From assembly GCA_000509225.1 (NCBI GenBank), contig BAOK01000001.1:2588914-2652913 (forward strand): DNA of 64,000 bases. The letters run 5' to 3'. Of the stretch, positions 1 to 63,547 are shown in pieces (the first letter of the stretch is position 1; each line of letters begins with the position of its first letter). The DNA is from Parvibaculaceae bacterium Mf 1.05b.01 (GTDB lineage Bacteria; Pseudomonadota; Alphaproteobacteria; Parvibaculales; Parvibaculaceae). The position numbers and the translations under genes are program-made. The notes under the pieces are model-generated. The model had not been told where the DNA came from. It saw nothing but the letters and a program-made list of their open reading frames with translations, and searched no databases.

Positions 1-82
1 GCCCTGGCGTACGACGGACCTGCATTGGTGGAAATCATCTCAGACTCGGATTTGCTCTGATCCCAGAGCATGCAAAAACAGC

Positions 83-9016: not shown

Positions 9017-9039
9017 ATAATGCTTGAGAGGAATACACC

Positions 9040-9477: not shown

Positions 9478-9510
9478 GGCGCGCAAAGCCCGAACAGAGG
9501 AATCCTCAAG

Positions 9511-10653
9511 ATGAAGTTTTTCCCTTCGCCCGTTCTCGCTGGCGTCGCTGCAGCGATCTTCGCCGCTCACCTTTCACTGACAGGTGTAGCATCCGCGTCG
9601 ACATCGACCATTGAAATCGCTGACCCGAGCGAGGCTCTCACCCTTGCGCGGGTCTCGGTGAATGGCAGCCCCCAGCTGATGTCGGTGAGTTCCTACGTCG
9701 ACGGAGATGTTTCTGGGGTTGTGCTCACCGGCGCACCTGACGATCCCATCACGGCCTTTCAGGCCTTGGGATTTGAAGGTCTCGACACGCTGATCTCGGA
9801 ATCCGGTACGCAGTTAGAGACTTCGGCATCGGATCTTCTCATCCCCGTGTCGCTTACCGACCGCCATATTGCTGCAGGGACGAACTTTCCAGAGCACGCA
9901 GAAGAAGCAACCGTGGAGGATGGTCCGTTCCTCTTCACCAAAGCGGTGCAGCCAACGAAAGCCGGTGAGCTGCCCTATTCAGAAAATTGGCTGTTAGACT
10001 TTGAGGTGGAGCTCTGTTTTGTGGGCTTTGACGTGATTGACTTGAACAATCCGCCAGAGCATGTCGGCCTCTTTCTCTGTAACGATTTTACGGATCGGGC
10101 AGCACTTCTGCGTCACCTCGATCCGTTTGATCCGGCATCTGGCAAAGGCTTCACAACGGGCAAGAGCGCACCCGGCTTCATGCCGATCGGCGATCTGTTT
10201 GTCATCCCCCGCGACCGAAAGAGTTTCGTTCCAGACATAGAGTTGACGCTTTCTGTCGATGGCAAAGAGCGGCAACGGGCTTTCCAGCGTCAGGCGGTCT
10301 GGAACTTTGAGGAGATGCTCGGTCAGATCGATCAGCGTCGCGACATGGTCTGGGACTATCGAGGTACGCCGATCATGCTGCCCCTCGACAATGGGACCAT
10401 CCCGCTTCGCACCGCCCTGCTTGGCGGCACACCAAGCGGCACCATCTTCCAGGGCGACATCGGTCTCTCTGTCTATCTTCGCGCCGCCTTCAGTTGGCTT
10501 TTCGGTGGCTGGGATCGCTCGATTGTTCAATGGGTCATTGAAACCGTCATTGAAGATGCAAAAGCAAGCGGAGACTTTCTTAAGCCCGGCAATCAGGTCG
10601 TACTCCACGCTGACAAGCTTGGCACCGTGGAGACGTTGATCGTCGCTCCTTAG
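9511..10653 (+). CDS. Secreted protein of unknown function
   Basis: 380 aa, beginning with a signal peptide (KFFPSPVLAGVAAAIFAAHL, probable cleavage after VASA). The mature part is soluble, mixed alpha/beta by appearance, with only two cysteines (in ELCFVG and LFLCND, spaced about 20 residues) that could form a disulfide. I recognise no catalytic motif. It is 33 bases downstream of the DUF6640-like gene with AGAGGAA ahead of the ATG and ends the operon. It stops 6 bases from the end of the convergent DUF4345 gene. It might bind the substrate of the upstream enzymes in the periplasm, which is a guess from position. Confidence 0.75.
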   Translation: MKFFPSPVLAGVAAAIFAAHLSLTGVASASTSTIEIADPSEALTLARVSVNGSPQLMSVSSYVDGDVSGVVLTGAPDDPITAFQALGFEGLDTLISESGTQLETSASDLLIPVSLTDRHIAAGTNFPEHAEEATVEDGPFLFTKAVQPTKAGELPYSENWLLDFEVELCFVGFDVIDLNNPPEHVGLFLCNDFTDRAALLRHLDPFDPASGKGFTTGKSAPGFMPIGDLFVIPRDRKSFVPDIELTLSVDGKERQRAFQRQAVWNFEEMLGQIDQRRDMVWDYRGTPIMLPLDNGTIPLRTALLGGTPSGTIFQGDIGLSVYLRAAFSWLFGGWDRSIVQWVIETVIEDAKASGDFLKPGNQVVLHADKLGTVETLIVAP

Positions 10654-10659
10654 TCACTG

Positions 10660-11088
10660 TCAGTCGAGATGTGTGGCATCCAGGCGGCGGTGCCACACAT
10701 AGAGGATCGGCATACCGATCAATTCGGCGGCAAGCGAGCCAATAATGTCTGGTCCAAACGCTATTTCCGGATTGTCTGAGAGCAATCGCATCACGCCGCC
10801 GCAAAAGATCAAGGCAAAGGCAAGCCGGAGCACTTGCGCGTACCGCGGCGGGCTCCATGCACCTGCCCATAGTGCGAGACCGACGCCCAACCAAACGCCG
10901 CCCAAGAATTTTACATGGTTGTCCTGAACTGCGTATGCGTGCGCATTTGTGATCGCCACAAAATCGTTTGAGCCCAACCAGCCGCGTGTCGTGATGCCGC
11001 CAAGGCCAATGTCGAGCCCCAGTACCATAATGAATGCTCCAGCCATAAAGAGGACGGCTCTGAAGATGGTCGGTGATGCCTCATGCAT
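10660..11088 (-). CDS. DUF4345 family membrane protein
   Basis: 142 aa with four predicted transmembrane helices (around residues 10-30, 60-80, 85-105 and 110-130). The pattern of a short polar loop after helix 1 (ITNAHAYAVQDNHVKFLGGVWLG) matches DUF4345 proteins as I remember them. No function is established for the family. It is divergent from a TetR gene, with a perfect palindrome between them, so it is probably the target of that regulator. Confidence 0.75.
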   Translation of the reverse strand: MHEASPTIFRAVLFMAGAFIMVLGLDIGLGGITTRGWLGSNDFVAITNAHAYAVQDNHVKFLGGVWLGVGLALWAGAWSPPRYAQVLRLAFALIFCGGVMRLLSDNPEIAFGPDIIGSLAAELIGMPILYVWHRRLDATHLD

Positions 11089-43866: not shown

Positions 43867-44035
43867 TGAGCATTCCGCTCCCAGAATATCCTGTAAACAC
43901 TGTTTCCCACAGGTTTGCGAGAAAATGTGATCAATCACCCCCGCGGTCGTGATTTCGCGTCCCCCCCCTATCCGTGTAGCCTGTTGGCTCTAGTTTGGTG
44001 GGAGCGTGAGCTCTCACAGACTTTCTGGGGGGAAC

Positions 44036-45289
44036 ATGACTTCGGTGCTCTTGATCGCTGCCGTCTTTACGATGGGCTATACGATGATCGCCAAGCGGTT
44101 GACGACCACCGTCATCACCGCGCCGATGGTCTTTTTGAGTTTTGGGTTCCTCCTCTCCCAATCAGGTATGATGCTGCATGGAGATGCGGAAGAAACCCTT
44201 CACCTCGTCGCTGAAATTGCGTTGGTCATTCTGCTCTTTCTTGATGCCTCTCAAATCGATCTCGAGGCCCTGAAAGAAAGGCATATCTGGCCGCAGCGCA
44301 TGCTGCTGATCGGCTTGCCCCTCACCATCGCATTGGGCACGATTGCGGCGGCGCCGTTTCTGCCCGGATGGCCACTTGTGGCACTTGTTCTCATGGCGGC
44401 CATACTTGCGCCAACCGATGCAGCACTTGGTCAGGCCGTCGTCACCAATCCGGATGTGCCGGAACGTCCCCGCCGCGCCCTCACCGTTGAGAGCGGCCTC
44501 AATGACGGCATTGCGCTGCCAGCCATTCTCCTCTTTGCAAGCCTGACGGCAGAAGCAATGGACCAAAACGGCGTCGACTGGGCTCTTTTCGGCGCCAAGC
44601 AGCTGATCCTAGGGCCGCTTGTCGGGATCGCCACGGGGTATCTCGGCGGACGGGTCCTGATTTGGGCGAAATCCCGGGACTTCACCTCTGATACCTATGA
44701 AGGGGTTGGGGCCATCGCGCTGGCAGGTGCTGCCTATCTCGCGGCGACAATCGTTGATGGCAATGGTTTCATCTCCGCGTTTGTCGCAGGACTCTGCTTC
44801 GGCAATGTGGTGAAGGGACGCTGCAAGTTCATCTATGAATTCACAGAAAGCGAAGGCCAGCTGCTGACCTGGGCGGCATTCTTCCTGCTTGGTGCTGCGC
44901 TCGTCCCGGAAGCAATTCAACACCTTACCTGGTCGACACTCGCCCTTATCCTCATCAGTCTGTTTGTCGTGCGCCCGCTTGCCATTTGGCTCTCACTCAT
45001 CGGCACCGACGCGTCGACGACCACACGCTTGTTCTTTGGCTGGTTCGGTCCCAGAGGTCTCGCGACGGCGCTTTTTGCGCTCTTGATTGTTCAGCAGATC
45101 GACATGGAGATAGGCGAGCCTATTCTCTATATCGCGATCAACGCAGTATGGATCAGCGCATTTCTTCATGGCCTCTCCGCCTTGCCCGCCGCGCGCTGGT
45201 ACGGCGCCCATGTCGAGTCGAAAGGCAAATGCCCCGAGGCCGAACCCATTACGCACTCGGCCAAGCCGCTGATAACCGACAATACCTAA
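44036..45289 (+). CDS. NhaP-type cation:proton antiporter (CPA1)
   Basis: About 417 aa, around 12 helices. The helices include LVILLFLDASQIDLEAL near residue 75 and PTDAALGQAVVTNPDVPERPRRALTVESGLNDGIALP near 130-165. The second holds the acidic residues of the ion site (ESGLND) seen in NhaP/NhaK proteins. It exchanges Na+ or K+ for H+. The ATG at 44036 has GGGGGGAAC upstream; a start at 44006 is less likely. It is followed 19 bases later by the Rieske/glutamate-synthase fusion gene and may be cotranscribed. The 234-base gap before it contains only the terminator at 43834 and presumably a promoter. Confidence 0.9.
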   Translation: MTSVLLIAAVFTMGYTMIAKRLTTTVITAPMVFLSFGFLLSQSGMMLHGDAEETLHLVAEIALVILLFLDASQIDLEALKERHIWPQRMLLIGLPLTIALGTIAAAPFLPGWPLVALVLMAAILAPTDAALGQAVVTNPDVPERPRRALTVESGLNDGIALPAILLFASLTAEAMDQNGVDWALFGAKQLILGPLVGIATGYLGGRVLIWAKSRDFTSDTYEGVGAIALAGAAYLAATIVDGNGFISAFVAGLCFGNVVKGRCKFIYEFTESEGQLLTWAAFFLLGAALVPEAIQHLTWSTLALILISLFVVRPLAIWLSLIGTDASTTTRLFFGWFGPRGLATALFALLIVQQIDMEIGEPILYIAINAVWISAFLHGLSALPAARWYGAHVESKGKCPEAEPITHSAKPLITDNT

Positions 45290-45308: not shown

Positions 45309-46922
45309 ATGAAAAAAGTAGCGATCGCCAAGCTTGATGATTTGAAAGACCGGGAACCGCATTATGCGCTTGTGGACACAGTTGATCTCGTGATCGTTCG
45401 GTTCGACAAAGAGATCTCGGTTTTTTACGGACGGTGTCTGCACCGTGGAGCGCTTATGTCCGACGGATTTGTCGATGACAATGACAACCTCATATGCGGC
45501 GTTCACAATTGGGACTATCGGCTCGACACGGGCGTTTCCGAATACAACAATTCTGAAGCTCTTGAAAAATTCACCTCCTGGGTGAAAGGCGGCAAAGTCT
45601 ATGTCGATACGGAAGAAGTCACCGCCTGGGCGGAGAAGAACCCTCAGCCGTTCAACCGTGATGAATATCTCGGCCTCTATGCCGACACGAGCCATGGCAC
45701 GCAAGAGGAGCCCTATAACGGGCTCATTCAACAATATGCAAAAGATGGACTGTCCAAGACCGGCCATCACGGGGTTGTCGATGCCATGGGCGTGCCCCGC
45801 GCTGAGCTTCCTGACTGGGATGACATCCAACTGCTCACGGCTCAACTTCACAAACCGCCATTGCTGGACGAAGATGATGTCGGAACAGAGGTGGTTATCG
45901 GCCCAAACGCACAAAAGCCCCTGACGCTCGACATTCCCTTGATGGTCTCTGACATGAGTTTTGGCGCGCTTTCAGAGCCCGCCAAAGTAGCACTTGCACG
46001 CGGCGCCGATCTGGCCGGGACAGGCATCTGCTCTGGCGAGGGTGGCATGTTACCGGAAGAGCAACAGGCGAATTCCCGCTATTTCTACGAATTGGCTTCA
46101 GCCCGTTTCGGCTTTGATTGGGACAAACTCAGCAAGGTCCAGGCCTTCCATTTCAAAGGTGGGCAAGGCGCCAAAACAGGCACAGGCGGCCACCTGCCGG
46201 GAAACAAAGTGAAGGGAAAGATCGCGGAAGTCCGTGGCCTGAACGAAGGCGAATCTGCCATTTCACCTCCGCGGTTCCCTGAATGGACGGAAGTCTCACA
46301 GATCAAAGAATTTGCGGATGAGGTTCGATCACGAACGGGCGGCATTCCAATCGGCTATAAGCTGTCTGCCCAACACATCGAAAAAGACATCGATGCAGCA
46401 CTTGATGTGGGGGTGGACTATGTGATCCTCGATGGTCGTGGTGGTGGCACTGGTGCCGCACCCATCATATTCCGGGACAATATTTCAGTACCAACCATCC
46501 CAGCGCTTGCGCGCGCCAGACGACATCTTGATCACGCCGGGCGTAAGGATGTGACACTGGTGATCACGGGCGGTCTTCGTAAACCGGCAGATTTTGTGAA
46601 AGCACTTGCGCTCGGTGCCGATGCGATCGCTGTTTCCAACGCTGCGATGCAAGCCATCGGATGCATCGCGATGCGCGCCTGCCACACAAACAATTGTCCG
46701 GTCGGCATTGCGACACAGAAGCCTCATCTGATGAACCGGCTGGTGATCGAGAAGTCTGCCCACCAACTCAAAAACTTCTTTGAGGCGTCGACTGAACTTA
46801 TGAAGGTCATGGCACGTGCCTGCGGGCACTCGCACCTGTCGCATTTTTCGCAGGATGATTTGACCACCTGGAAACACGAAATGGCGGACCTTTCAGGTGT
46901 CGCCTATGGCGGCATGAGGTAA
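45309..46922 (+). CDS. Rieske domain fused to a glutamate-synthase-like FMN domain
   Basis: 537 aa. Residues 1-110 form a Rieske [2Fe-2S] domain with exact ligand spacing: Cys43-x-His45, 17 residues, Cys63-x-x-His66. Residues about 150-525 match the FMN-binding synthase domain of glutamate synthase: FHFKGGQGAKTGTGGHLPG, LDGRGGGTGAAP and the [3Fe-4S] motif CIAMRACHTNNC (C-x5-C-x4-C). There is no glutaminase domain and no N-terminal Cys, so ammonia would not come from glutamine here. Two iron-sulfur centres and FMN in one chain suggest an electron-transfer chain feeding FMN chemistry. The substrate is unknown; possibly an amino or keto acid. A DUF5996-like gene follows after 3 bases. Confidence 0.9.
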   Translation: MKKVAIAKLDDLKDREPHYALVDTVDLVIVRFDKEISVFYGRCLHRGALMSDGFVDDNDNLICGVHNWDYRLDTGVSEYNNSEALEKFTSWVKGGKVYVDTEEVTAWAEKNPQPFNRDEYLGLYADTSHGTQEEPYNGLIQQYAKDGLSKTGHHGVVDAMGVPRAELPDWDDIQLLTAQLHKPPLLDEDDVGTEVVIGPNAQKPLTLDIPLMVSDMSFGALSEPAKVALARGADLAGTGICSGEGGMLPEEQQANSRYFYELASARFGFDWDKLSKVQAFHFKGGQGAKTGTGGHLPGNKVKGKIAEVRGLNEGESAISPPRFPEWTEVSQIKEFADEVRSRTGGIPIGYKLSAQHIEKDIDAALDVGVDYVILDGRGGGTGAAPIIFRDNISVPTIPALARARRHLDHAGRKDVTLVITGGLRKPADFVKALALGADAIAVSNAAMQAIGCIAMRACHTNNCPVGIATQKPHLMNRLVIEKSAHQLKNFFEASTELMKVMARACGHSHLSHFSQDDLTTWKHEMADLSGVAYGGMR

Positions 46923-46925
46923 TAT

Positions 46926-47774
46926 ATGGCCCGCAATCAGCACATCGAAGCAATACTGCCTGCCGAACTCGGCGCCGCCCGTGCGCTTGCCCATGCAGCA
47001 GCACAGCTTCTAACAAAAGCAGCCCGTGCCAATCTGGCAGCATCGCCCGATGACAGCCACTCCAATCTTAGCTGGGATGGTGACGCACAAAGGTTTGCGA
47101 GCCAGCCCCTTCCCGGGGCCAATGGTGAGGTTTATGTTGGCCTCTCGCTCGTTCCCTTCGAACTCTGCCTTATCGACAGTGCAACCGGCACGTCGGTCTA
47201 CCCGCTCGCAGGCCACCGCCTCGCGGAGGCTGCAGCCTGGCTTGATGATGTGCTTGAAAGCGTTGCGCTAGAGCCTGGCGCCAATGTGTCGCTTCCTTAT
47301 GACCTTCCGGACGATGTCGCGACGATCTCAAGAATTCCCGACGCGCTCCCTGACGGCCTCAAATCGCTTGCCGCCTGGTTCGACCTTGCCGATAGGGCTT
47401 TTAGGAAACTCGCGGCAGATCATGCCGGACTGAACCCAGGCGCCAGCCCCGTGCGGTGCTGGCCTCATCATTTCGATATTGCCACCTATGTCAGCCTGGA
47501 AGCGGGCGATGCTGAAACAGCCAAGGGCATCGGTGTTGGCATGTCGCCTGGCGATGAGAGCTATGGCCAACCCTATTTCTATGTCAATCCCTGGCCGCAC
47601 CTTGACCCTGCAAAGCTGCCCGACGCCCCAACGCCCGGGCACTGGCACACGCAAGGATTTGTCGGCGCCATTGCAACCGGTGACGAAATATTGAGCGCTC
47701 CGGAAACAAAAAAGGCGCTGTCCGGTTTTCTGGAAAGCGCCTTTTCTATTGGCCACAGGTTGTTGATGCGATGA
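46926..47774 (+). CDS. DUF5996-like protein of unknown function
   Basis: 282 aa, soluble. The segment SPVRCWPHHFDIATYVSLE near residue 180, the YFYVNPWPH stretch and TPGHWHTQGFVGAI near 240 recall DUF5996 proteins. Their His-rich motifs (PHHFD, PWPH, HWHTQG) could be metal or substrate ligands. That family link is from memory and moderately sure. It begins 3 bases after the Rieske fusion stop, so almost certainly translated from the same mRNA. It may act on or bind the same compound. Near its end the coding DNA doubles as a hairpin terminator for the facing gmd gene. Confidence 0.7.
   Translation: MARNQHIEAILPAELGAARALAHAAAQLLTKAARANLAASPDDSHSNLSWDGDAQRFASQPLPGANGEVYVGLSLVPFELCLIDSATGTSVYPLAGHRLAEAAAWLDDVLESVALEPGANVSLPYDLPDDVATISRIPDALPDGLKSLAAWFDLADRAFRKLAADHAGLNPGASPVRCWPHHFDIATYVSLEAGDAETAKGIGVGMSPGDESYGQPYFYVNPWPHLDPAKLPDAPTPGHWHTQGFVGAIATGDEILSAPETKKALSGFLESAFSIGHRLLMR
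47706..47745 (-). terminator. Intrinsic terminator for gmd, embedded in the end of the facing coding sequence
   Basis: On the minus strand AAAAGGCGCT (47745-47736) pairs perfectly with AGCGCCTTTT (47719-47710) over a 16-base loop. The 3' side runs into six T residues, then GTTT. It lies about 48 bases past the gmd stop at 47793 but within the DUF5996-like gene, which ends at 47774. On the plus strand the T-run is broken (TTTTCTATT), so it is best oriented for gmd. Confidence 0.75.
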
Positions 47775-48988: not shown

Positions 48989-50761
48989 TCAGTGCTTGTG
49001 AGCCACTCCTGCGCCTGTCGGCACGCGGATATCATCGACAAGATCCTGGACATGAGCTGGTGGTGGGCTGGTCGCCTGACTAACCGAGAAGGCAACCAGG
49101 AAATTCAACAGCATTCCGATCGTGCCAATCCCCTCCGGTGAGATGCCCCACAACCAGTTTTCTGAGCTGTTGAGCTCTGGCGACACAAATTTGAAGAACA
49201 CGATATAGGCAAAGGTGAATATGAGGCCGGACAACATGCCAGCGATCACACCTTCTTTGTTCATTCGTTTCACGAAGATGCCGAGCAGGATTGCCGGAAA
49301 GAGTGATGCTGCTGCCAAGCCGAATGCAAACGCCACGACCTGCGCCACAAATCCCGGCGGATTGATTCCGAGATAGCCTGCAACACCAATCGCCACCGCC
49401 GCGGCAATGCGGGCATAAAGCAGCTCCTGGCGCTCGGTTATTTCCGGCATCAGTGTTTTCTTTAGCAGGTCGTGAGATATCGATGTCGAAACGACAAGAA
49501 GAAGCCCCGCGGCAGTCGATAAGGCTGCCGCAAGACCACCGGCAGCAACGAGCGCGATGACCCATCCGGGCAGACTTGCAATCTCAGGATTGGCAAGAAC
49601 AAAAATGTCCCTATCAGCATAGACTTCATTGACACTGTCGGTCGGCGCATTGGTCAAACCACGTTCACCGTTCGCGCCGTTCTCATCGCTATAAGTTGGG
49701 CTGCCTGCAAAAGCGGCGCCCGCTGCATATTGAATAACCCCGTCTTCATTCTTATCGATCCAACCGATAAGACCGATCTCTTCCCAGTTTTTAAACCAGC
49801 CGGGTGCTTCCGCATAGCTTGTATTGTTGATGGTCTCAACGAAGTTGAGACGCGCAAAGGCAGCGACAGCCGGCGCGGTCGTATAGAGAAGCGCAATAAA
49901 AATGAGCGCATAGCCCGCAGACAGGCGAGCGTCCGACACTTTGGGTACTGTGAAAAACCGCACGATGACATGGGGGAGACCTGCGGTTCCGACCATGAGG
50001 GCCATGGTGATGGCGAACACATCTATGGTCGCCTTCGAGCCTTCTGTATAGGGACTGAAGCCTAAGTCCAATAAGGTCTTGTCCAGTTTTGCGAGTACAG
50101 AGAGCCCTGACCCGTCGGCCACCGTGGCGCCGAGCCCCAACTGGGGCACGGGATTTCCTGTGATCAGAATTGAAATGAAGATCGCCGGTACCATGTAGGC
50201 GAAAATCAGCACGCAATACTGCGCGACCTGGGTATAGGTGATGCCCTTCATGCCACCGAGCACAGCATAGACAAACACAACGCCCATCCCCACGATCACG
50301 CCAACAGTAATGTCGACCTCGAGAAAGCGTGAGAACACAATTCCTACGCCGCGCATCTGCCCAGCGACGTAAGTAAATGAGATGAAGATCAGGCAAATGA
50401 CGGCTACGATCCGGGCGGCTCTTGAATAGTAGCGCTCACCAATGAAGTCCGGGACGGTGAATTGTCCGAACTTGCGCAGGTAAGGCGCAAGAAGAAGCGC
50501 GAGCAAAACATAACCGCCGGTCCAGCCCAAGAGATAGACCGACCCGTCATAGCCCAGAAATGCAATGATACCCGCCATGGAAATGAATGAAGCGGCACTC
50601 ATCCAGTCTGCTGCGGTCGCCATTCCGTTTGCGATCGGATGCACGCCGCCACCGGCGACGTAGAATTCCTTCGTTGTTCCGGCCCGCGACCAGATGGCGA
50701 TGCCGATATAGAGCGTGAATGACGCGCCCACGAAAAGATATGTCAGGATTGCTGTGCTCAT
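48989..50761 (-). CDS. Sodium:solute symporter (large subunit, acetate/organic-acid type)
   Basis: 590 aa, about 13 helices, SSS family close to ActP. Signatures include EFYVAGGGVHPIANGMATAADWMSAASF near residue 30 and GLPHVIVRFFTVP in the middle. The segment WIDKNEDGVIQYAAG around residues 337-351 reads as most of an EF-hand calcium loop (D-x-N-x-D-G-x-I) but lacks the final Glu. It lies in a long loop between helices. A DUF4212 gene lies 8 bases upstream, which identifies the two-subunit branch of the family. The likely cargo is a short organic acid such as acetate or propionate, by analogy only. Confidence 0.92.
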   Translation of the reverse strand: MSTAILTYLFVGASFTLYIGIAIWSRAGTTKEFYVAGGGVHPIANGMATAADWMSAASFISMAGIIAFLGYDGSVYLLGWTGGYVLLALLLAPYLRKFGQFTVPDFIGERYYSRAARIVAVICLIFISFTYVAGQMRGVGIVFSRFLEVDITVGVIVGMGVVFVYAVLGGMKGITYTQVAQYCVLIFAYMVPAIFISILITGNPVPQLGLGATVADGSGLSVLAKLDKTLLDLGFSPYTEGSKATIDVFAITMALMVGTAGLPHVIVRFFTVPKVSDARLSAGYALIFIALLYTTAPAVAAFARLNFVETINNTSYAEAPGWFKNWEEIGLIGWIDKNEDGVIQYAAGAAFAGSPTYSDENGANGERGLTNAPTDSVNEVYADRDIFVLANPEIASLPGWVIALVAAGGLAAALSTAAGLLLVVSTSISHDLLKKTLMPEITERQELLYARIAAAVAIGVAGYLGINPPGFVAQVVAFAFGLAAASLFPAILLGIFVKRMNKEGVIAGMLSGLIFTFAYIVFFKFVSPELNSSENWLWGISPEGIGTIGMLLNFLVAFSVSQATSPPPAHVQDLVDDIRVPTGAGVAHKH

Positions 50762-50769
50762 GATCGCCC

Positions 50770-51132
50770 CTAGTCGTCGTCGACGCCGAAGCGGCGTTCA
50801 ATGCGTTTCATCTGCACGACATAGACAAAAATCAATGCCACGAATACGTAGATGGACCCCTGCTGTGCCCACCAGAAGCCGAGCTTGAAACCGAAGAGGG
50901 AATATTGATTGAGTGCATCTACAAAGAGGATGGAAAAACCAAATGAAACGACGAACCAGATGACGAGCAGACCGCCAAGGAGTCTCAGATTCGCGCGCCA
51001 ATAAAGACGCACGACGTCTTCTTTGAGTGTTTCCTCATCATGGTGTCCATGGCTCGGGAGGTTTTCCCCCTCATGATGGAAGATACTCCTCTGGGCATCC
51101 TTCTCTGATGACCCGTTTTTTTGCTCGTCCAC
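50770..51132 (-). CDS. DUF4212 small subunit of the sodium:solute symporter, GTG start
   Basis: About 120 aa with a charged, His-rich N-terminal tail (NLPSHGHHDEETLKED) and two helices. YWRANLRLLGGLLVIWFVVS and LGFWWAQQGSIYVFVALIFVY are typical for DUF4212. It sits 8 bases ahead of the symporter gene, the arrangement usual for this two-component transporter. The start is a GTG at 51132 preceded by GGGGGAGGG with 6-base spacing. A longer reading to 51195 is unlikely. Confidence 0.9.
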   Translation of the reverse strand: MDEQKNGSSEKDAQRSIFHHEGENLPSHGHHDEETLKEDVVRLYWRANLRLLGGLLVIWFVVSFGFSILFVDALNQYSLFGFKLGFWWAQQGSIYVFVALIFVYVVQMKRIERRFGVDDD

Positions 51133-51224
51133 GAAAAACCCTCCCCCGCGATTCGATCCACGGAAGAGGGTAAACCGGATAGACCCTAATCTCATATAGG
51201 TCTTTGTGAGACGGCGATGCCGAT

Positions 51225-53460: not shown

Positions 53461-55032
53461 ATGTCTAAGAGAATTAGAAATATCGCGTTTGTCCTCGCCG
53501 TCGCATTAGCGACCGCCCTCAGCGTGCCATTTGCCCAGAGAGGGTTTGCTGATAGTGCTGACATTGTCGGCACGCCCTTGCCGCGACCTATGGCGCCATT
53601 CACGCATGAAAGCCTTGTCCAGCACGCAAAATATCTGTCAGAACGTACCTATGAGCCCGCGATCCCGACGAGTGAGCGCTGGGCGTCACTGACGTTTGAT
53701 CAACACAGAGCGATCCGGTTTAAATCTGACCTTTCTCTGCCTCTTTCCCCCAATGAGTCCGTGACCGCCCAGCTGCTGCCGCCCGGGCGGGCTCTCAACA
53801 ATCCTGTGCGCATCAACCTCATCGAAGACGGCAAGGTGGTCCCTGTTCCCTTTGATCCAGCGTTCTTTTCGCTAGGGGAGACCGCACCTGACAACCTCTC
53901 TGAGGTTGGCGGCGACTATTCCGGATTTCGCCTTCATGGCTCGCTCAATTCTCCCGACACGCTTGATGAGTTTCTCGTCTTTCAAGGCGCTTCCTACTTC
54001 AGAGCGATTGCCAAAGGCCATGTATATGGTCTCTCAGCGCGGGGACTCGCGATCGATATTGGTGAAGAGAGCGGCGAAGAGTTTCCGATCTTTACCGATT
54101 TCTGGATTCAACGAAGTGCGGAAGCCGATCAACCGATCACGCTTTACGCACTCATGAACTCGCCCGGCATAACCGGCATCTACACGTTTAAAACTCAACC
54201 CGGCACCACAACCGATATGGATGTCTCGGCGGTTTTGTTTCCGCGACGCGATCTCACCAATTTTGGATTAGCGCCGCTGACCAGCATGTTCCTGTTTGAC
54301 GAGACGAACCGACATCGCTTCGACGACTTCCGCTCCGGTGCACATGATTCAGATGGCTTAGCGATCAATAATGGTGCGGGAGAATGGCTATGGCGACCAC
54401 TCGCCAACCCTTTAGGGGTTCAGGAGAGTGCCTTTGTGGACCGCAACCCTAGAGGCTTTGGACTTATTCAGCGCTCCCGTGAGTTCGAAGATTTTGGCGA
54501 TCTGTCTCTCGACTATAATGATCGTCCCTCTGCCTGGGTGACACCGCACGGCGATTGGGGAAAGGGCTCAGTCACCCTTGTGGAACTGCCAACCGAGACA
54601 GAAACGTTTGATAATATCGTCGCATACTGGCGCCCCGCTGCGCCATTTCTCAAAGGCGAGCGATATGAATTCTCCTATACACTCTCTTGGCGAGACAGCG
54701 CGCCTGTCACAAATGGTCTCCTGAAAGTGATTAATACCCGTATTGGCGCGCGGCCAGAAGGCGGTAAAATCGTTGTCATCGACTATGCGCATCAAGACGG
54801 TCTGAACGGTCTTGCCACGGCGCAATTTGTAGATGAGTTTGTCCCAGAAGTTTTCACCAGCAAAGGCATCGCTCAATTTCCTGTTCTTGAAGCCAACCCA
54901 CATACTGGAGGCCTTCGCTTAACCTTCCAATATGATCCGCAAGAAGAGAATTCATCGGAGTTTCGCATAGCGCTGCGACAGAATGGGAAACAGGCTAGCG
55001 AGAAGTGGTTATATCGATGGACGCGTCAGTGA
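53461..55032 (+). CDS. opgG: Periplasmic glucan biosynthesis protein OpgG/OpgD
   Basis: 523 aa, near the E. coli length. Signal peptide NIAFVLAVALATALSVPFAQRGFA (cleavage about residue 30) leads to a periplasmic beta-sandwich protein. Family signatures include SLVQHAKYLSERTYEPA, FQGASYFRAIAKGHVYGLSARGLAID, EEFPIFTDFWIQ, TSMFLFDETNRHRFDDFR and HDSDGLAI. OpgG acts on nascent glucans, adding branches or shaping the backbone. It overlaps the opgH start by 16 bases, so translation is coupled. Confidence 0.94.
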   Translation: MSKRIRNIAFVLAVALATALSVPFAQRGFADSADIVGTPLPRPMAPFTHESLVQHAKYLSERTYEPAIPTSERWASLTFDQHRAIRFKSDLSLPLSPNESVTAQLLPPGRALNNPVRINLIEDGKVVPVPFDPAFFSLGETAPDNLSEVGGDYSGFRLHGSLNSPDTLDEFLVFQGASYFRAIAKGHVYGLSARGLAIDIGEESGEEFPIFTDFWIQRSAEADQPITLYALMNSPGITGIYTFKTQPGTTTDMDVSAVLFPRRDLTNFGLAPLTSMFLFDETNRHRFDDFRSGAHDSDGLAINNGAGEWLWRPLANPLGVQESAFVDRNPRGFGLIQRSREFEDFGDLSLDYNDRPSAWVTPHGDWGKGSVTLVELPTETETFDNIVAYWRPAAPFLKGERYEFSYTLSWRDSAPVTNGLLKVINTRIGARPEGGKIVVIDYAHQDGLNGLATAQFVDEFVPEVFTSKGIAQFPVLEANPHTGGLRLTFQYDPQEENSSEFRIALRQNGKQASEKWLYRWTRQ

Positions 55033-56951
55033 CCTCAACAAAAGCACATTTGCCGCCTGAGGCGCCCCTGGCAATGCCCGCCCAGTGTTTTGATGTCCCG
55101 TTCACAGATCCCGCTGCTGCGGCGCAAAACCAAGCCGAAAACCGCGGACTCCTCTCATTGAGGCGCGCAGCTGTCTTTTTCATTGCCACCCTCACAACAC
55201 TCTGGCTGCTATACGAAACACTTGCGGCGTTCTCTGTAGGCGGCGTTACGCCATCTGAAATCGGCATTGCCTGCCTCTTTGCCGCGAACTTCTTCTGGAT
55301 TTCACTTTCCGGCGTCAACGTGATCCTTGGTTTTTTAAGGCGCAACCATGACACGTTTGCTTCGCCTCGGCCCGCAAATCCAATGAAAGTCGCCCTTCTC
55401 GTGCCCGCCTATAATGAAGACCCGGGTCGCGTCTTTGCAAATGCCACTGCCATGCTGAAAAGCCTCAATGAGACTGACAGCATGCATGCGTATTCCTTCT
55501 TTGTTTTGAGCGATACGCGCGATGGCATCGCTGCTGCAGATGAAGTCGCGATGTTCGAAAGAGCGAAGCAACTCATGCCCGATGCGCCTCTGTTCTATCG
55601 ACGTCGTGCAGACAATGCGGGTCGCAAGGCTGGGAATATTGAAGAATGGGTGCGGCGCTGGGGAGGCGCTTATGACGCTATGGTCGTGCTCGATGCGGAT
55701 AGCGTTATGGAGGGCGGAACCATCCGTCGTTTGACAGACGAGATGGCGTCGGACCCAGCCGTGGGTCTTTTTCAAACGGTGCCCCGCCTCATCAAAACCA
55801 ACACTCTTTTCGGACGACTTCAACAGTTTGCGACGGCTGCCTATGGACAAACTCTTGCACGAGGGTTCGCCTCCTGGTTTTCGGGCGAAAGTAATTATTG
55901 GGGGCACAACGCGATCATTCGCACGCGCGCTTTTGCAGCTTCCGCAGGACTTCCCAATCTAAAAGGCACCGGACCCTTCGGCGGCGTTGTGATGAGCCAC
56001 GACTTTGTTGAAGCGGCGTTGCTGCGCCGCGCAGGATGGAAAGTTCGCCTGATGACCGAGCTTGGCGGGAGCTATGAAGAAACACCTCCGACACTGATCG
56101 ATCATGTCGTTCGGGATCAACGGTGGTGCCAAGGAAATCTCCAGCATGTCGGTGTGGTTGCCGCTGCTGGTCTGCATCCCCTTAGTCGTTTCCACCTCCT
56201 TCACGGCATCATGGCCTATATGGCAGCTCCCATGTGGCTCATGTTCATTTGTCTGGGTCTATTCACAACTGTGGACCCTATGGCATCGATCTTTGCTGTA
56301 GATCATTGGCAAAGCGTGAGTCGCAGCCTGACCATCAACTCCGATGTGACGCCTATGCAATTGATCTTTGCGGTGACGATCGGCGTTCTCTTTCTGCCAA
56401 AAGTGCTGGGTTTCTTGAGCCAGATTCTCCGCCGCGGCAGCGCGCAAGCCTGGGGCGGAAATCTTCGCACTGCGAGCTCATTCATCATTGAAGTGCTTCT
56501 CTCTGCAGCAGTTGCACCAGTTCTCATGGTCCAACAGACGCTGGCGGTTGTAAAAACACTGGCCGGTCGGGAACAGGGCTGGAATGCCCAACGTCGTTCC
56601 GCTGCTCGCGATGATTTCGGTGATCTGCTCCGCTGCCATGCCGTTGAAACCATCTTGGGTCTCGGGCTTCTTTATGGGATCGCAGCAGGTGTGATTACGC
56701 TTTGGCTCATTCCTGTGGTCACCGGACTTGTGCTAGCTGCCCCGCTTTCTAGCCTGTTGGCAAAGCGTCCCGGGGCCTTGTTCGACCGGTTTGGCCTCCT
56801 GGTTGCGCCGGAGCAGTTTACGACGCCTCCCATTGTCATGTTAGCTGATCAATATCATCGTCAGCTGTCGCCCTCAGAGGCCGTCGTGCTGCCTGAGGAC
56901 GAAGACGCATCGGCGCTCCCAGTGCCGGGCACCGTTCCTTCTTCTGCCTGA
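55017..56951 (+). CDS. opgH: Membrane glucosyltransferase OpgH
   Basis: About 644 aa, shorter than E. coli OpgH (847) and mainly lacking its long N-terminal part. A family 2 glycosyltransferase core carries LLVPAYNEDPGRVF, the D-x-D-like LDADSVMEGG, SHDFVEAALLRRAGW and the RDQRWCQGNLQH (Q-x-x-R-W) motif. About six to eight helices surround it, some at 45-75 and others past 380. It makes the beta-1,2 glucan chain from UDP-glucose and exports it. The ATG at 55017 is inside the end of opgG; a GTG at 55005 is the alternative. Confidence 0.93.
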   Translation: MDASVTSTKAHLPPEAPLAMPAQCFDVPFTDPAAAAQNQAENRGLLSLRRAAVFFIATLTTLWLLYETLAAFSVGGVTPSEIGIACLFAANFFWISLSGVNVILGFLRRNHDTFASPRPANPMKVALLVPAYNEDPGRVFANATAMLKSLNETDSMHAYSFFVLSDTRDGIAAADEVAMFERAKQLMPDAPLFYRRRADNAGRKAGNIEEWVRRWGGAYDAMVVLDADSVMEGGTIRRLTDEMASDPAVGLFQTVPRLIKTNTLFGRLQQFATAAYGQTLARGFASWFSGESNYWGHNAIIRTRAFAASAGLPNLKGTGPFGGVVMSHDFVEAALLRRAGWKVRLMTELGGSYEETPPTLIDHVVRDQRWCQGNLQHVGVVAAAGLHPLSRFHLLHGIMAYMAAPMWLMFICLGLFTTVDPMASIFAVDHWQSVSRSLTINSDVTPMQLIFAVTIGVLFLPKVLGFLSQILRRGSAQAWGGNLRTASSFIIEVLLSAAVAPVLMVQQTLAVVKTLAGREQGWNAQRRSAARDDFGDLLRCHAVETILGLGLLYGIAAGVITLWLIPVVTGLVLAAPLSSLLAKRPGALFDRFGLLVAPEQFTTPPIVMLADQYHRQLSPSEAVVLPEDEDASALPVPGTVPSSA

Positions 56952-56964
56952 CTGAGTTATTCGA

Positions 56965-58110
56965 TCAGGCTTGTGGTGCCTTCGGCGCGAGCTTCCAAGG
57001 CTGCCCCTTGAACCACCCGACAGAGTAGGCAATCCCGATCAGCAGAACAAAGCCGCCCAGATTTACAACCGCCGCAGAACCAAAGTTCCGGCCCATCTGA
57101 TCAAGCAGGAAGCCACCAAAACGCGCAGCAACTAGGCTCACCAGGAAGACCGCCAGGGATTGCTGTCCCACCTTTTGCACGATCATGACAAACCGGTTCC
57201 AGATCACCCCGCCTTGAAGGCGTTTTCCGCCCTCTCCGGCTGCAACCCAAGCCAAATAGGCGAGGGAGAGGAAATGCACATAGCGGAAAAATCCGAAGCG
57301 CGTTTTGTTGATGAGAAAAGAAATCTCTCCTCTCCATTCCGCAAAGAATGGGAGCGCGTTATAGGCGCGGTACCAGGCAAAGGGGATGGTGAGAACAACA
57401 AACAGTGCAGCTAGAATGATGAGTGTTTTATTCACAGGTGGAGCCGGTAGCCAGCGCAGCCCAAACGCAAATCCGGTGAAGAAAACAAGCTGCCAGGCAA
57501 AAGGATTGAAAAACCAGGTGCGATCAGACCAAGGCTCTGCTGGCAAATCCAGGAGATGGAAATTCGCCGCAAGCCAGAGCCCGGCGACCAGCAGACCTGC
57601 GAGGGCCGGGTGGCGCATCCCTAGAGCCATCACAAGGGGCACCAGCGCGAGGATTCCCAGATACATAGGCAGGATATCGAACAGGTTCGGGACATAGGTC
57701 AGCGTCAGATAGCCAACCATGTTCTCAGCGGGCCGCGCAAAGAAGTGCTGAAGGTTGAGCTTACGGACATACAAACCATCAAACCCGCCCAGATGGTCAA
57801 TGGTCACAAGCATGGCGGCAATCGTCAGGAACACTGCGATGTGGGACCAATAGACCTGCCAGATCCGATGGAGAATTCGAGCGGTCCCCATGGACCAGGA
57901 GTGTTCGTTAAAAACGCGACCAAAGGCAATTGCGGAGGCCATGCCCGAACAGAAGACAAAGATCTCGGTGGCATCAGAGAACCCGAAGCGCGCAGGTATC
58001 CACAAGGTCCAGGAGTTTCCGGGAACATGGGCGATGAAAATGATGAACATTCCGAGCCCGCGGAAAAAGTCGAGACGCGGGTCCCTTGGCCGTTTCTGAA
58101 TTTCTGTCAC
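56965..58110 (-). CDS. opgC: OpgC-family acyltransferase (glucan succinyl transfer), likely GTG start
   Basis: About 381 aa, ten or so helices, OpgC domain: RDPRLDFFRGLGMFIIFIAH near residue 10, FGFSDATEIFVFCSGMASAIAFG near 45, and NMVGYLTLTYVPNLFDILPMYLGIL in the middle. It adds succinyl groups to periplasmic glucans and ends 13 bases from the end of opgH on the other strand. The start is taken as GTG at 58110 with GGGGA upstream. A GTG at 58137 is equally possible. Convergent placement means it needs its own promoter. Confidence 0.88.
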   Translation of the reverse strand: MTEIQKRPRDPRLDFFRGLGMFIIFIAHVPGNSWTLWIPARFGFSDATEIFVFCSGMASAIAFGRVFNEHSWSMGTARILHRIWQVYWSHIAVFLTIAAMLVTIDHLGGFDGLYVRKLNLQHFFARPAENMVGYLTLTYVPNLFDILPMYLGILALVPLVMALGMRHPALAGLLVAGLWLAANFHLLDLPAEPWSDRTWFFNPFAWQLVFFTGFAFGLRWLPAPPVNKTLIILAALFVVLTIPFAWYRAYNALPFFAEWRGEISFLINKTRFGFFRYVHFLSLAYLAWVAAGEGGKRLQGGVIWNRFVMIVQKVGQQSLAVFLVSLVAARFGGFLLDQMGRNFGSAAVVNLGGFVLLIGIAYSVGWFKGQPWKLAPKAPQA

Positions 58111-58241
58111 GTGAAAAAAGTCCCCATGTCGAACCACCTGCAGCGGTCCTCATACCCTTTTAGAGAGCCGCTTAATACCCATTTGTGGGGCCATACACCC
58201 AGGGCCCACAGCGTAGAATTGTCGAAGAGTAGTGGCTATTT

Positions 58242-59817: not shown

Positions 59818-61422
59818 CTAAAAAGCGCCATCATATGCGCGCCGCCCAATACGGCAGGCAAGCAGAGTGAAACTGTTTCGGTTCAGAGCTGCTGATGCCT
59901 CTCGCTCCAGCGTCTCGACATCATCAACCCAAAAGCCTTTACCGCCCATTGCATCTGCAACTGCAGGGAAGTCCGTTCCGTCAAAATCCACGCCCGTATT
60001 GGCGCGCCCCATTGCCCGTTGCTTCATTTCGATGAGGCCAAGGCTTTCGTCCACCATCACGGTGATAACGAGTGGGAGCTTTAGATCACGAATAGTGGCG
60101 AGTTCGCCTAAGATCATTTCAAGGCCGGCATCGCCCAAGACAGTTGCTACAGGCACGTCAGGCGCACACAGCTTATATCCAGCTGCTATTGGTACAGCAC
60201 AGCCCATTGTGCAGAGCGCTGAGGATTGCAGGAGCGTGCGAGGTGCATGGGTTGTCCATTTTTGCGACAACAAGATGCGATGCGCACCACTATCCGTCGT
60301 CATTACTGTGTTGTCCGGTAGAACCATTCGCAAGGTGTCGTAGACATGGCCAGGGGAGAAGCCTTCGCTTGTGGTGGTGAACGCGGTCGCCAGATCGGTC
60401 CTTACCAAGCTTGCTTCACCATTCGTCCATGTCTCACCCGACTTGGCTTCAGACAATGCAGACAGCGTGTCTGCTATCGGTGACAGGAAGCACTCGCTCA
60501 CCCTATGCATGCCGTGAGTCCGAACGACAGGCGTTATCTCCACCACCTGTTTCTCAGGCCCCCACGGATTGCGCCAGCCCACCCGCATCTCAATCGGGTC
60601 ATATCCAATCAGGAAGATTAAATCAGACCGCTCGATGAGTGGCATCAACACCTTGTCTGCTTTGGGCGACAGCCCTGCTCCCCCAATAGCCAGGGGATGG
60701 GTCTCGTTGATCAGCCCTTTGCCTTTGTAGCTGGTAATAAGGGGAACACCATAGCGCTCGCAAAAAGCCTGAATGGCAGGTCCAGCCTCTTCATTGACCG
60801 CGTCGACACCTGCAATTGCCAGGGGGCGCTCGGCTGCCTCCAAACTTGCAATTACACGCTCAAGCCCGACAACCGGCGGTGCGCCAAGGGCGGGTGCTGA
60901 CGAGAAAGGCCGATCTTCCTCTGGTGCCGCACCCTCCGCGGTTCCAATCGGCACATCAATATGGACCGGCCCTGGTTGACCTTCCGTGGCGATGAGAAGC
61001 GCCTTTTCAATCATTGCGCCGACAGCACCAGGTGCCGCACAGAAGCTTGCTTTAACAATGGGCCGCAACAGTGCCTGATGATCAAAGACCTGGTGGGTAT
61101 AGGTTTCAGCCTCTGCCGCATCGACACGACCGGTGAGGAAGATGAGCGGTACCTTGTCCTGATGGGCGTTGGCCACCACGTTCACCGCATTGGCGACTCC
61201 CGGCCCAAGCGTGGCGACAAGAATGCCAGGCGCGCCGGTTGCATGCCACGCACCTTCCGCCATAAAGCCCGCAGAATTTTCGTGTTTCGTCAGCACGAAC
61301 TGGATGCCACTTTGGGTCAGCGCATCAACCAATGCGAGCACTTCGCCACCGGGAATGCCAAAGGCTGTCCGACACCCTGCGTCATATAGATGATGTGCAA
61401 TGATCTGCGCGCCGGTTTTCAT
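59818..61422 (-). CDS. ThDP-dependent enzyme of the acetolactate synthase superfamily
   Basis: 534 aa with the three-domain layout of the superfamily. The activating Glu48 is in LTKHENSAGFMAEGA. The central Rossmann-like domain spans about residues 190-330. The ThDP motif reads GDAGLEMILGELATI, with VDES where NN is usual, so the metal-binding Asn appears to be Asp. It lacks the TGGA/oxalyl-CoA signature I would look for, so its carbon substrate is open. It starts 4 bases inside the end of the CoA transferase gene (ATGA), so is translated from the same mRNA. Confidence 0.88.
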   Translation of the reverse strand: MKTGAQIIAHHLYDAGCRTAFGIPGGEVLALVDALTQSGIQFVLTKHENSAGFMAEGAWHATGAPGILVATLGPGVANAVNVVANAHQDKVPLIFLTGRVDAAEAETYTHQVFDHQALLRPIVKASFCAAPGAVGAMIEKALLIATEGQPGPVHIDVPIGTAEGAAPEEDRPFSSAPALGAPPVVGLERVIASLEAAERPLAIAGVDAVNEEAGPAIQAFCERYGVPLITSYKGKGLINETHPLAIGGAGLSPKADKVLMPLIERSDLIFLIGYDPIEMRVGWRNPWGPEKQVVEITPVVRTHGMHRVSECFLSPIADTLSALSEAKSGETWTNGEASLVRTDLATAFTTTSEGFSPGHVYDTLRMVLPDNTVMTTDSGAHRILLSQKWTTHAPRTLLQSSALCTMGCAVPIAAGYKLCAPDVPVATVLGDAGLEMILGELATIRDLKLPLVITVMVDESLGLIEMKQRAMGRANTGVDFDGTDFPAVADAMGGKGFWVDDVETLEREASAALNRNSFTLLACRIGRRAYDGAF

Positions 61423-62690
61423 ATTTTCCTGTCCTCTATCACGCCTGCATCCGTTAGCTCAGCTATCTCCTCATCTGAGAGATGGAGCTTACTTGCCAGA
61501 ACACTATTGGTGTCAGCACCTCGCACAGGAGGTGATCGGTGATACTGAACAGGCGTCTCACTTAGTTTGAGTGGATTGCCAATGAGCGGAACACTTCCGC
61601 TGCCTGCGGTTGGGTGAGGCATTTCCACTTTCATTTCTCGGTGCTGAATTTGAGGATCTGCAAAAATATCTGGAATCGTGTTGATCGGCCCGCAAGGCAC
61701 GCCGGCCCCTTCCAACAGCTCAATCCATTCGGCCGCTGACTTTTGTCGGGTCAGGTCCTGCAATATTGGGATCAGCACGTCACGGTTGCGCACGCGGTCA
61801 ACATTCCTGGCAAAGCGTTCGTCGACAGATAGATGCTCTGCGCCTGCGGCCGAACAGAATTTCGAAAACTGACCATCATTTCCAACTGCGAGGATGAAGG
61901 TCTTGTCAGACGCGGGAAAGGTTTCATAAGGCACAATGGTCGGATGACCATTTCCCAGGGGCATGGGCGTTTCTCCTGAGACGAGATAGGAGGCACCCTG
62001 ATTCACCAACCAGGCAACCTGGCTGTCCAGAAGTGAGATGTCTATGTGCTGACCAGTTCCCGATTTGTGGCGCGCTTCCAACGCCGCCAGAATTCCGACC
62101 GTCGCATACATGCCGCACATGACATCGGCAATGCCGACCCCGACTTTCATCGGTCCTGTGCTTTGCGGATGGTCCAGAGGATCACCTGTAATGCTCATGA
62201 TCCCGCCCATTCCCTGAATGAGAAAGTCATAACCAGCACGGGGAGCATAGGGGCCGGTTTGACCAAAACCTGAAATAGAACAATAGATCAGCCGAGGATT
62301 TCGTTTGGAGAGCGTCTCATAGTCCAATCCATAGCGCGCAAGATCTCCCACTTTGAAATTCTCAACCAGAATGTCGGCGCTGTCGGCCAATTGACGAATG
62401 AGCTCGCGGCCTTCCTCACTTGCCAAGTTGATCGCGACGGATTGCTTGTTGCGGTTTGACGATAGGTAGTAGGCACTCTCTTCGGTGTCTTTGCCTTCGG
62501 CATCTTTCAGGAACGGGGGACCCCAGGCGCGGGTATCATCCCCCTTGCCAGGCCGCTCAATTTTGATGATCTCTGCGCCCAAATCGCCGAGCAATTGAGT
62601 CGCCGTTGGTCCGGCGAGGATCCTCGACAGATCCAGTACAGTAAGGCCAGACAGCGCGCCGGTCCCTTCTTGGTGGTTTTCAGTGGTCAT
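61419..62690 (-). CDS. CaiB/BaiF family (class III) CoA transferase
   Basis: About 423 aa. N-terminal GLTVLDLSRILAGPTATQLLGDLGAEIIKIE, RNKQSVAINLASEEGRELIRQL, YCSISGFGQTGPYAPRAGYD and QGMGGIMSITG are family motifs. The Asp in VGIADVMCGMYATVGILAALEAR is the likely covalent CoA carrier. It moves CoA between carboxylic acids. The ATG at 62690 fits the family start; longer reading to 62726 is unlikely. The pair with a ThDP enzyme is reminiscent of the formyl-CoA transferase/oxalyl-CoA decarboxylase pair but is not proof of oxalate use. Confidence 0.92.
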   Translation of the reverse strand: MTTENHQEGTGALSGLTVLDLSRILAGPTATQLLGDLGAEIIKIERPGKGDDTRAWGPPFLKDAEGKDTEESAYYLSSNRNKQSVAINLASEEGRELIRQLADSADILVENFKVGDLARYGLDYETLSKRNPRLIYCSISGFGQTGPYAPRAGYDFLIQGMGGIMSITGDPLDHPQSTGPMKVGVGIADVMCGMYATVGILAALEARHKSGTGQHIDISLLDSQVAWLVNQGASYLVSGETPMPLGNGHPTIVPYETFPASDKTFILAVGNDGQFSKFCSAAGAEHLSVDERFARNVDRVRNRDVLIPILQDLTRQKSAAEWIELLEGAGVPCGPINTIPDIFADPQIQHREMKVEMPHPTAGSGSVPLIGNPLKLSETPVQYHRSPPVRGADTNSVLASKLHLSDEEIAELTDAGVIEDRKI

Positions 62691-62719
62691 GATTGTTTCT
62701 CTATGGTCGACGCGCCACT

Positions 62720-63547
62720 CTACCAACCTTTAAGGCCGGACAGAATTTCCCAGCTGCGCTCAATCCAGGCCGCACGATAAATGTGGCCGCCTTCATGGAC
62801 GCAAAGCTCTAAAACGCTGCTGTCGCATCTCAATCTACGTTCGCAGCGGAACGGTTCAGCTTCCAGGATCTCCGGCTCTTCCTTTTCACACTGGCCTTGG
62901 GAGTGCCAGATATCAAAACTCTCATAGGTATTTCCCTGGCGATAGAGGCCTCCAGCGATCGCGCGCCCGATCAATGGAAAGGTCCCGTCTTTTTGCCCGT
63001 GATAATGCATAAGGTTTGGCGTGCCACTTGGACAGGTTTCTGGAAGCGGATTCCATAGCGTGCCCGCTACAGGCACAAAACCCGCGAACCTGTCACCCAT
63101 ATAACATGACAGACTCCACACCATCGAGGCACCTAAAGAAAAACCAGATGCCAGGATCTTGTCCCTTGGTACATGGAACCGGGCCTGGACGTCATCCAGC
63201 ACCTCTCCCACGTAGGCGAGCTCGTTTCTGGCTCTTGCTGGCGCCCCGGGAAATGACCAGCCGCCGCGGAGACCGTTCGCGGCAATGAGGGCGATGCCGT
63301 GACGATCACTCATCGCCTGCAGGTTCGTATTGCGCATGACACCTTCCGACGACCCCTTCCACCCATGGAAAAAGAGGACGGCTCCGGCAGGGCGGTCACC
63401 TGCCAAACTGTCAGGCAGGTAAATCCGATAGTCCCCTGATCGCACGACACAATCTGTGTCGCTCGCTCCACACGCTGCCGCGGGCGGCGCAAGGAGATTC
63501 AAGAATGCACAAATCATGAGCAGATTGATTGAAAAAAAACGGGACAC
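62720..63547 (-). CDS. Secreted PHB depolymerase/esterase-like hydrolase
   Basis: 275 aa. Signal peptide LLMICAFLNLLAPPAAACG, possibly a lipoprotein given Cys26, then an alpha/beta hydrolase with the VLFFHGWKGSSEG oxyanion region and the GFSLGAS nucleophile elbow (Ser in place). The His is plausibly in CVHEGGHIYRA, resembling LpqC/PHB depolymerase family esterases. Several cysteine pairs suggest disulfides. It would cut polyester or ester substrates outside the cytoplasm. It ends 30 bases upstream of the CoA transferase start. Confidence 0.85.
   Translation of the reverse strand: MSRFFSINLLMICAFLNLLAPPAAACGASDTDCVVRSGDYRIYLPDSLAGDRPAGAVLFFHGWKGSSEGVMRNTNLQAMSDRHGIALIAANGLRGGWSFPGAPARARNELAYVGEVLDDVQARFHVPRDKILASGFSLGASMVWSLSCYMGDRFAGFVPVAGTLWNPLPETCPSGTPNLMHYHGQKDGTFPLIGRAIAGGLYRQGNTYESFDIWHSQGQCEKEEPEILEAEPFRCERRLRCDSSVLELCVHEGGHIYRAAWIERSWEILSGLKGW

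Follow-up and report, generated by a model that had tools for sequence, protein, structure and literature searches.

A Rieske–glutamate synthase-like fusion protein in Parvibaculaceae bacterium Mf 1.05b.01 and its linkage to Rieske-tethered ThDP and haem-b proteins

We analysed a stretch of 64,000 nucleotides from Parvibaculaceae bacterium Mf 1.05b.01 (contig BAOK01000001.1, positions 2,588,914 to 2,652,913 of the forward strand; hereafter the window), which encodes a single-chain protein with an N-terminal Rieske [2Fe-2S] domain and a glutamate synthase-like flavin mononucleotide (FMN)/[3Fe-4S] core. This Rieske–glutamate synthase-like fusion is abbreviated as FUS. Genes for two other Rieske-tethered proteins lie at the two edges of the window: RTP, a fusion of a Rieske domain with a thiamine diphosphate (ThDP) enzyme, and RHB, a haem-b membrane protein with a Rieske domain at its C-terminus. 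The three genes fall within ~67 kb of the host genome, and the genome G002 has the identical order. The features of FUS are as follows.

45309..46922, + strand: FUS gene, 537 aa, start codon ATG (45309), stop codon 46920-46922
45318..45548, + strand: Rieske [2Fe-2S] domain of FUS, aa 4-80, PF00355
45435 (Cys43), 45441 (His45), 45495 (Cys63) and 45504 (His66), + strand: Rieske ligands of FUS, counted on the translation
45864..46829, + strand: Glu_synthase FMN/[3Fe-4S] core of FUS, aa 186-507, PF01645
46662..46697, + strand: [3Fe-4S] cysteines of FUS (Cys452, Cys458 and Cys463), Cx5Cx4C pattern

The Pfam search assigned both domains, PF00355 with 46.4 bits (cut-off 20.3) and the CxH...CxxH ligands present, and PF01645 with 305.9 bits (cut-off 20.4). 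The program-made list of open reading frames (ORFs) places the start one codon upstream, at GTG. No glutaminase domain was among the Pfam families reported for FUS, and the Rieske domain occupies that N-terminal place. The four Rieske ligands and the three [3Fe-4S] cysteines did not vary across 50 aligned fusions, and Cys452, Cys458 and Cys463 align with cysteines of solved glutamate synthases. An earlier note made from the sequence alone had read the chain in this way, and the intact ORF, the Pfam assignments and the alignment bear this reading out. A fusion artefact or frameshift was considered and ruled out, since the full-length fusion recurs in independent assemblies, one of them a complete genome, and in plasmid records. 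The 3.82 Mb host genome (2 contigs) also encodes a GltB-like protein (1581 aa frame) and a second GltS-like protein (521 aa), and FUS is thus not its sole member of the glutamate synthase (GltS) family.

The top sequence and fold matches of FUS were ferredoxin (Fd)- and NADPH-dependent GltS (1ofe, 1ea0, 7mfm), which have the FMN and [3Fe-4S] core in common with it; the fold matches include 1ofe, an Fd-GltS, and Fd-GltS with bound 2-oxoglutarate. Unlike these enzymes, FUS has no glutaminase domain, carries its own Rieske domain and has no adjoining GltD gene in the window. The earlier note had proposed redox chemistry with an amino or keto acid as substrate, which fits the core and the presence of solved relatives with 2-oxoglutarate among the best fold matches. 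We take the 2-oxoglutarate ligands of Synechocystis Fd-GltS to be E903, Q969, K972, Q978 and R992, an unconfirmed list. By alignment, FUS keeps Glu244, Gln286, Lys289 and Arg309 at these presumed positions and has His295 in place of Q978; six other GltS-like proteins also have His there.

N-methylglutamate synthase (MgsABC), the identity that the earlier note had named as one that would refute its reading, was examined and rejected. Two proteins (L164 and L165) lie in an mgs-like gene order of amidotransferase, GlxC, FMN-binding GltS and type III glutamate-ammonia ligase. They are taken as MgsC from this order, with the mgsABC-gmaS order in the available part of PMC6237917 as comparison. MgsC resembles FUS in being a GltS-type FMN subunit without a fused glutaminase (~35% identity). 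However, L164 and L165 have Asp, Trp and Asp where FUS has the three cysteines of the [3Fe-4S] cluster, Asp replaces Glu244 and Met replaces His295 (FUS numbering), and their cores branch with other proteins in the tree, apart from the fusion group. It is the missing cysteines and the tree that rule out this identity. The genes of the MgsABC operon (glutamine amidotransferase, GlxC-like and gmaS-like ligase) are not among the neighbours of FUS in the window.

The N-terminal domain is exchanged in relatives of FUS. G060, a genome of the same class, encodes a core 69% identical to that of FUS with two CDGSH-type motifs instead of the Rieske domain. The same architecture was found by motif in G239 and G248 of our class sample (240 genomes of the same class) as well as in Vibrio and Photobacterium replicons, and Pfam zf-CDGSH was confirmed for the Vibrio protein (L162). 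These proteins are the published type 5 CISD, described in the available part of Lin et al. 2011 (PMC3174974) as a glutamate synthase FMN-binding domain joined to CDGSH domains in tandem; the available part of PMC5859297 also records a CDGSH protein bearing a Glu_synthase domain. Type 5 CISD and FUS have in common the core clade (at most 69% identity), an N-terminal [2Fe-2S] domain, the [3Fe-4S] cysteines and the lack of a glutaminase domain, whereas CDGSH stands in place of the Rieske domain in the former. None of the three CDGSH-type genomes of the class sample has RTP, RHB or the DUF5996 protein described below. Tandem CDGSH motifs were found neither in the window FUS nor in 17 other bacterial and 3 archaeal Rieske-type sequences.

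A tree was built from 42 cores. Its 26 fusions (Rieske, archaeal Rieske and CDGSH) grouped together (support 98/95), and among them the five CDGSH sequences made up a clade of their own (96/91) whose sister was formed by the archaeal Rieske sequences (97/98). The Rieske sequences did not form a single clade, and the deeper branching order had no resolution. A single swap of Rieske for CDGSH would be the simplest history, and FUS is, as judged from its sequence, the Rieske counterpart of type 5 CISD. What stays constant across both architectures is an N-terminal [2Fe-2S] domain, as expected for an electron port.

Loci were counted among the best 80 of at least 578 FUS relatives confirmed in a scan of named genomes. 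These 80 are 73-85% identical to FUS, most of them matched over FUS aa 1-536. To judge from the record titles, Alphaproteobacteria predominate, many of them belonging to marine genera. Nitrospirales, Nitrospinaceae, Woeseiaceae, Thiotrichaceae and Campylobacteraceae appear in the titles of 1-2 metagenome bins each (titles only, unchecked). The full Rieske fusion was also found on three haloarchaeal plasmids (Salinirubellus, Halorarius and Halorubrum; 60-62% identity), whose records label it 'glutamate synthase-related protein'. Co-occurrence was scored in 47 fusion genomes, a subset of the 80 hand-picked for isolates and diversity, and in the class sample, for which Fisher P values were calculated by genome and by genus. 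The neighbours of FUS in the window that bear on this scoring are as follows.

1..60, + strand: 3' end of the RTP gene, most of which is to the left of the window (G000:C2:2586985-2588973)
44006..45289, + strand: cation/proton antiporter, PF00999 with 132.5 bits, ending 19 bases upstream of FUS
46926..47774, + strand: DUF5996-family protein, 282 aa, PF19459, with its ATG three bases past the FUS stop

RTP (~661 aa) consists of a Rieske domain and three ThDP-enzyme domains by Pfam and NCBIfam. The closest model is pyruvate oxidase (385 bits, under its cut-off of 742), and among solved structures pyruvate dehydrogenase [cytochrome] 3eya matches best. It shares the three domains with PoxB-type ThDP enzymes and differs from them in the N-terminal Rieske domain; the end of the solved chain (572 residues in 3ey9) is unmatched, as the match stops at its residue 528. 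RHB (~354 aa), also by Pfam and NCBIfam, is a ferric-reductase-like (haem-b) membrane protein with a C-terminal Rieske domain. It starts 115 bases past the right window edge and is followed in the host genome by a gene for a cysteine-bearing membrane protein. The available part of PMC3591440 records one protein (model M4) that combines a ferric reductase domain and a Rieske electron-transfer domain, which resembles RHB in this combination and differs in being listed with FMN; that part holds nothing on FUS or RTP. No paper on a Rieske–glutamate synthase or Rieske–ThDP fusion was among the matches listed in our literature search, most subscription journals being outside its scope.

ORF clustering of the 80 loci placed RTP in 43, a few copies being cut by contig ends and that of L054 being a remnant. 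RHB was present in 37 loci, and in 35 it is followed by a membrane-anchored protein of ~253 aa that has conserved cysteines and matches no family. In this protein (L063 11082-11843; L131 2084-2854) CxxxC ... HxxCxxxC is conserved, and the L063 copy has no Pfam match. RTP is placed in at least three ways relative to FUS: it directly follows FUS in 26 loci, lies ~4 kb downstream in others and upstream on the opposite strand in still others. Therefore, the FUS–RTP linkage was probably rebuilt more than once. At locus L054 (Ruegeria arenilitoris), what look like broken remnants of the cysteine-bearing protein and of RTP were seen by eye at 7714-8897, downstream of intact FUS and antiporter genes, and no intact RTP or RHB gene was found in that genome. 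Of the 80 loci, 63 have one or more of antiporter, RTP, RHB and DUF5996, and 17 have none within the stretch covered.

The gene linkage extends across lineages and across bacteria and archaea. The class sample contained Rieske-type FUS in 6 genomes, CDGSH-type in 3, RTP in 11, RHB in 12 and DUF5996 in 8. All but one of the six Rieske-type FUS genomes have RTP, RHB and DUF5996; the exception, G112, is 67% complete. RTP and RHB occurred together solely in these five, which also carry FUS. The Fisher P values by genome were 4e-7 for FUS–RTP, 7e-7 for FUS–RHB and 5e-8 for FUS–DUF5996, and those by genus (3/4 genera each) were 2e-4, 3e-4 and 3e-5, respectively. The 47 fusion genomes hold RTP in 32 and RHB in 35, with both in 27, RTP alone in 5 and RHB alone in 8. 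All three haloarchaeal plasmid records with FUS carry RTP too; the Rieske domain of the archaeal RTP was confirmed by Pfam in two, and the third was matched over residues 8-660.

The Rieske motifs are conserved in all 50 FUS sequences and, with few exceptions, in 40 RTP and 36 RHB sequences. This bears on a reading in which the Rieske domain senses redox state or iron and turns the core on or off, the neighbouring genes being tied to FUS by a common stress response. The replacement of Rieske by CDGSH would suit a sensor too. However, two enzymes of different folds and a membrane haem protein all carry Rieske domains, and since these are conserved in all three module proteins, electron traffic is a simpler account than three separate sensors. 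We thus regard a sensor as improbable.

The DUF5996 protein was the partner proposed in the earlier note, which had placed a DUF5996-like protein three bases after the fusion and an antiporter before it. Both placements are right: the antiporter, FUS and DUF5996 genes lie nearly gapless on one strand, and the DUF5996 protein clears the PF19459 cut-off (30.4 vs 25 bits). A relative in L045 scores 18.5 bits, which places this subfamily at the edge of PF19459. FUS and DUF5996 might form a functional pair with the other genes as passengers. They are direct neighbours in the window, as in 4 of the 6 other genomes of its genus, the remaining 2 having neither, and the class sample gave the co-occurrence noted above. 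FUS and DUF5996 are thus found together in other genomes, a check that the earlier note had asked for, and their co-occurrence is not based on adjacency alone because G134 and G161 hold DUF5996 on a separate contig from FUS and RTP. What did not hold is a close coupling: DUF5996 is present in only 10 of the 80 loci and 9 of the 47 fusion genomes, and in 9 of the 10 loci it lies 9-74 bases after the RTP gene. In G042, which has RTP and no FUS at the threshold used, the DUF5996 match (10358-11056) is directly behind the RTP match (8373-10361). A FUS–DUF5996 pair is therefore very improbable in our estimation. Since DUF5996 mostly follows RTP, it is most likely an RTP accessory, to judge from gene order, and would have moved behind FUS in the genus of the window.

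Two genomes of another genus (G086 and G210) have DUF5996 without RTP, RHB or FUS. Among the 47 genomes, DUF5996 was found in 5 of 12 without RHB vs 4 of 35 with RHB (P 0.035), a weak hint that it tends to occur where RHB is absent. The AF2 model of the DUF5996 protein was confident (pLDDT 93.5) but had no clear solved relative, the best Foldseek E being 0.094, and the best VIA Z was 5.4 to 2plg, with 5.3 for a type III secretion chaperone and ~5 for frataxin chains. These likenesses may reflect a common alpha-beta arrangement only, and hence no function is claimed. The literature search found no paper on DUF5996 within the same scope.

We propose a tentative model, to which we give somewhat less than an even chance: FUS would be a single-chain GltS-type flavoenzyme with the Rieske domain as its electron port, in a loose module with RTP, RHB and the membrane-anchored cysteine-bearing partner of RHB. 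The best reading of the module is a Rieske-wired amino-acid/2-oxo-acid redox unit. For the [3Fe-4S]/FMN core, the Rieske domain would provide the electron link that otherwise comes from an external ferredoxin or an NADPH subunit. The FMN core would interconvert glutamate, or an amino acid closely similar to it, with the corresponding 2-oxo acid and ammonia; the chance that the substrate is glutamate/2-oxoglutarate is about even. Electrons would pass from FMN to [3Fe-4S], to the Rieske centre, to RHB and to the membrane, and RTP would feed electrons from the oxidative decarboxylation of a 2-oxo acid into the same carriers. Physical electron exchange among FUS, RTP and RHB appears rather probable from the gene linkage and the common domain type.

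All three Rieske domains have an aromatic residue at one shared position, at which high-potential Rieske proteins have serine. This suggests that the three centres are low-potential. Low-potential Rieske ferredoxins lie above the FMN and [3Fe-4S] potentials of glutamate synthase. The path from the core via the Rieske domain to the haem-b protein would thus be downhill for electrons, and for this reason the oxidative direction is slightly preferred, at a chance just short of even. The reductive direction, fed by RTP, is almost as likely and remains a fair contender below that.

In the reductive reading FUS would be an ammonia-dependent glutamate synthase in which RTP electrons reach FMN via the Rieske domains and aminate 2-oxoglutarate, the glutamate serving as an osmolyte (potassium counter-ion) beside the cation/proton antiporter. 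The solved core relatives that we found are glutamate synthases, RTP is present in 32 of the 47 fusion genomes and in all 3 archaeal records, and the hosts of the FUS plasmids are haloarchaeal. The antiporter occurs in 35 of the 80 loci and directly upstream of FUS on the same strand in 32, which adds to this reading. On the other hand, 8 of the 47 fusion genomes have RHB without RTP, and the potentials given for glutamate synthase in the available part of PMC8097209 (FMN -240 mV, [3Fe-4S] -280 mV) favour outward flow. Moreover, an antiporter is near FUS in just 1 of the 3 archaeal stretches. We consider this complete scheme rather unlikely. As for salt itself, which the earlier note had raised as a possibility, the upstream antiporters and the three haloarchaeal plasmids make a circumstantial link to FUS. 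On the Halorarius halobius plasmid (L160 4992-7702), sodium:proton antiporter and potassium channel genes lie between RTP and FUS. This antiporter belongs to PF00999 and was not counted as the counterpart of the window antiporter, as it gave no tblastn match to it at 1e-4; around FUS on the remaining two archaeal plasmids, the annotation of the stretches examined shows no antiporter. In an uncultured Nioella (L070 2215-5808), FUS was seen by eye downstream of glycine betaine/proline-type ABC transporter-like genes.

Several observations weigh against the preferred model, a GltS-type flavoenzyme in a Rieske-linked module. RTP occurs without FUS in 6 of 11 genomes of the class sample and RHB in 7 of 12, and both are missing from 7 of the 47 fusion genomes, which means that FUS is able to function with other partners. 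No shared alternative partner was seen by eye among the neighbours of nine loci whose fusions lack both. The three haloarchaeal plasmid records showed no RHB, the search covering the plasmids and not the chromosomes, and no DUF5996 either, which is in any case a minor partner of FUS. The change of Gln to His295 at one presumed ligand position means that 2-oxoglutarate may not be the substrate, and the predicted model of FUS is of middling confidence (pLDDT 78.5, pTM 0.66). Phylogeny entered the P values via the genus-level count only, and the scoring of the class sample took in part of the candidates of the first look. RTP and RHB, outside both window edges, are commoner partners of FUS than DUF5996 is.

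Other genes of the window were noted in passing. The stretch 53461-58137, between the FUS and RHB genes, encodes MdoG (PF04349), a family-2-like glycosyltransferase and OpgC (PF10129), and is probably an osmoregulated periplasmic glucan locus. At 59818-62726 a ThDP enzyme adjoins a class III CoA-transferase, a pair which we take to resemble oxalyl-CoA decarboxylase and formyl-CoA transferase. At 48989-51195 a sodium:solute symporter adjoins a DUF4212 protein.

A bolder extension of the module, which we hold to be unlikely, would make the Rieske domain a common plug on two cytoplasmic enzymes whose folds are unrelated, a GltS-type amino acid dehydrogenase and a ThDP 2-oxo-acid oxidase. An amino acid would be oxidised to the 2-oxo acid and then to the one-carbon-shorter acid, RHB would collect all electrons and pass them to the membrane or outside, the antiporter would balance protons, and the circuit would have moved between bacteria and haloarchaea. 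With the linkage described here, the label 'glutamate synthase-related protein' gives way to a testable three-protein Rieske module, which many alphaproteobacteria have and haloarchaeal plasmids have in part. Should the Rieske domains indeed work as a common plug, this would be a little-known route by which enzymes enter an electron-transfer chain, and it would offer clues to what DUF5996 and the CDGSH–glutamate synthase fusions do.

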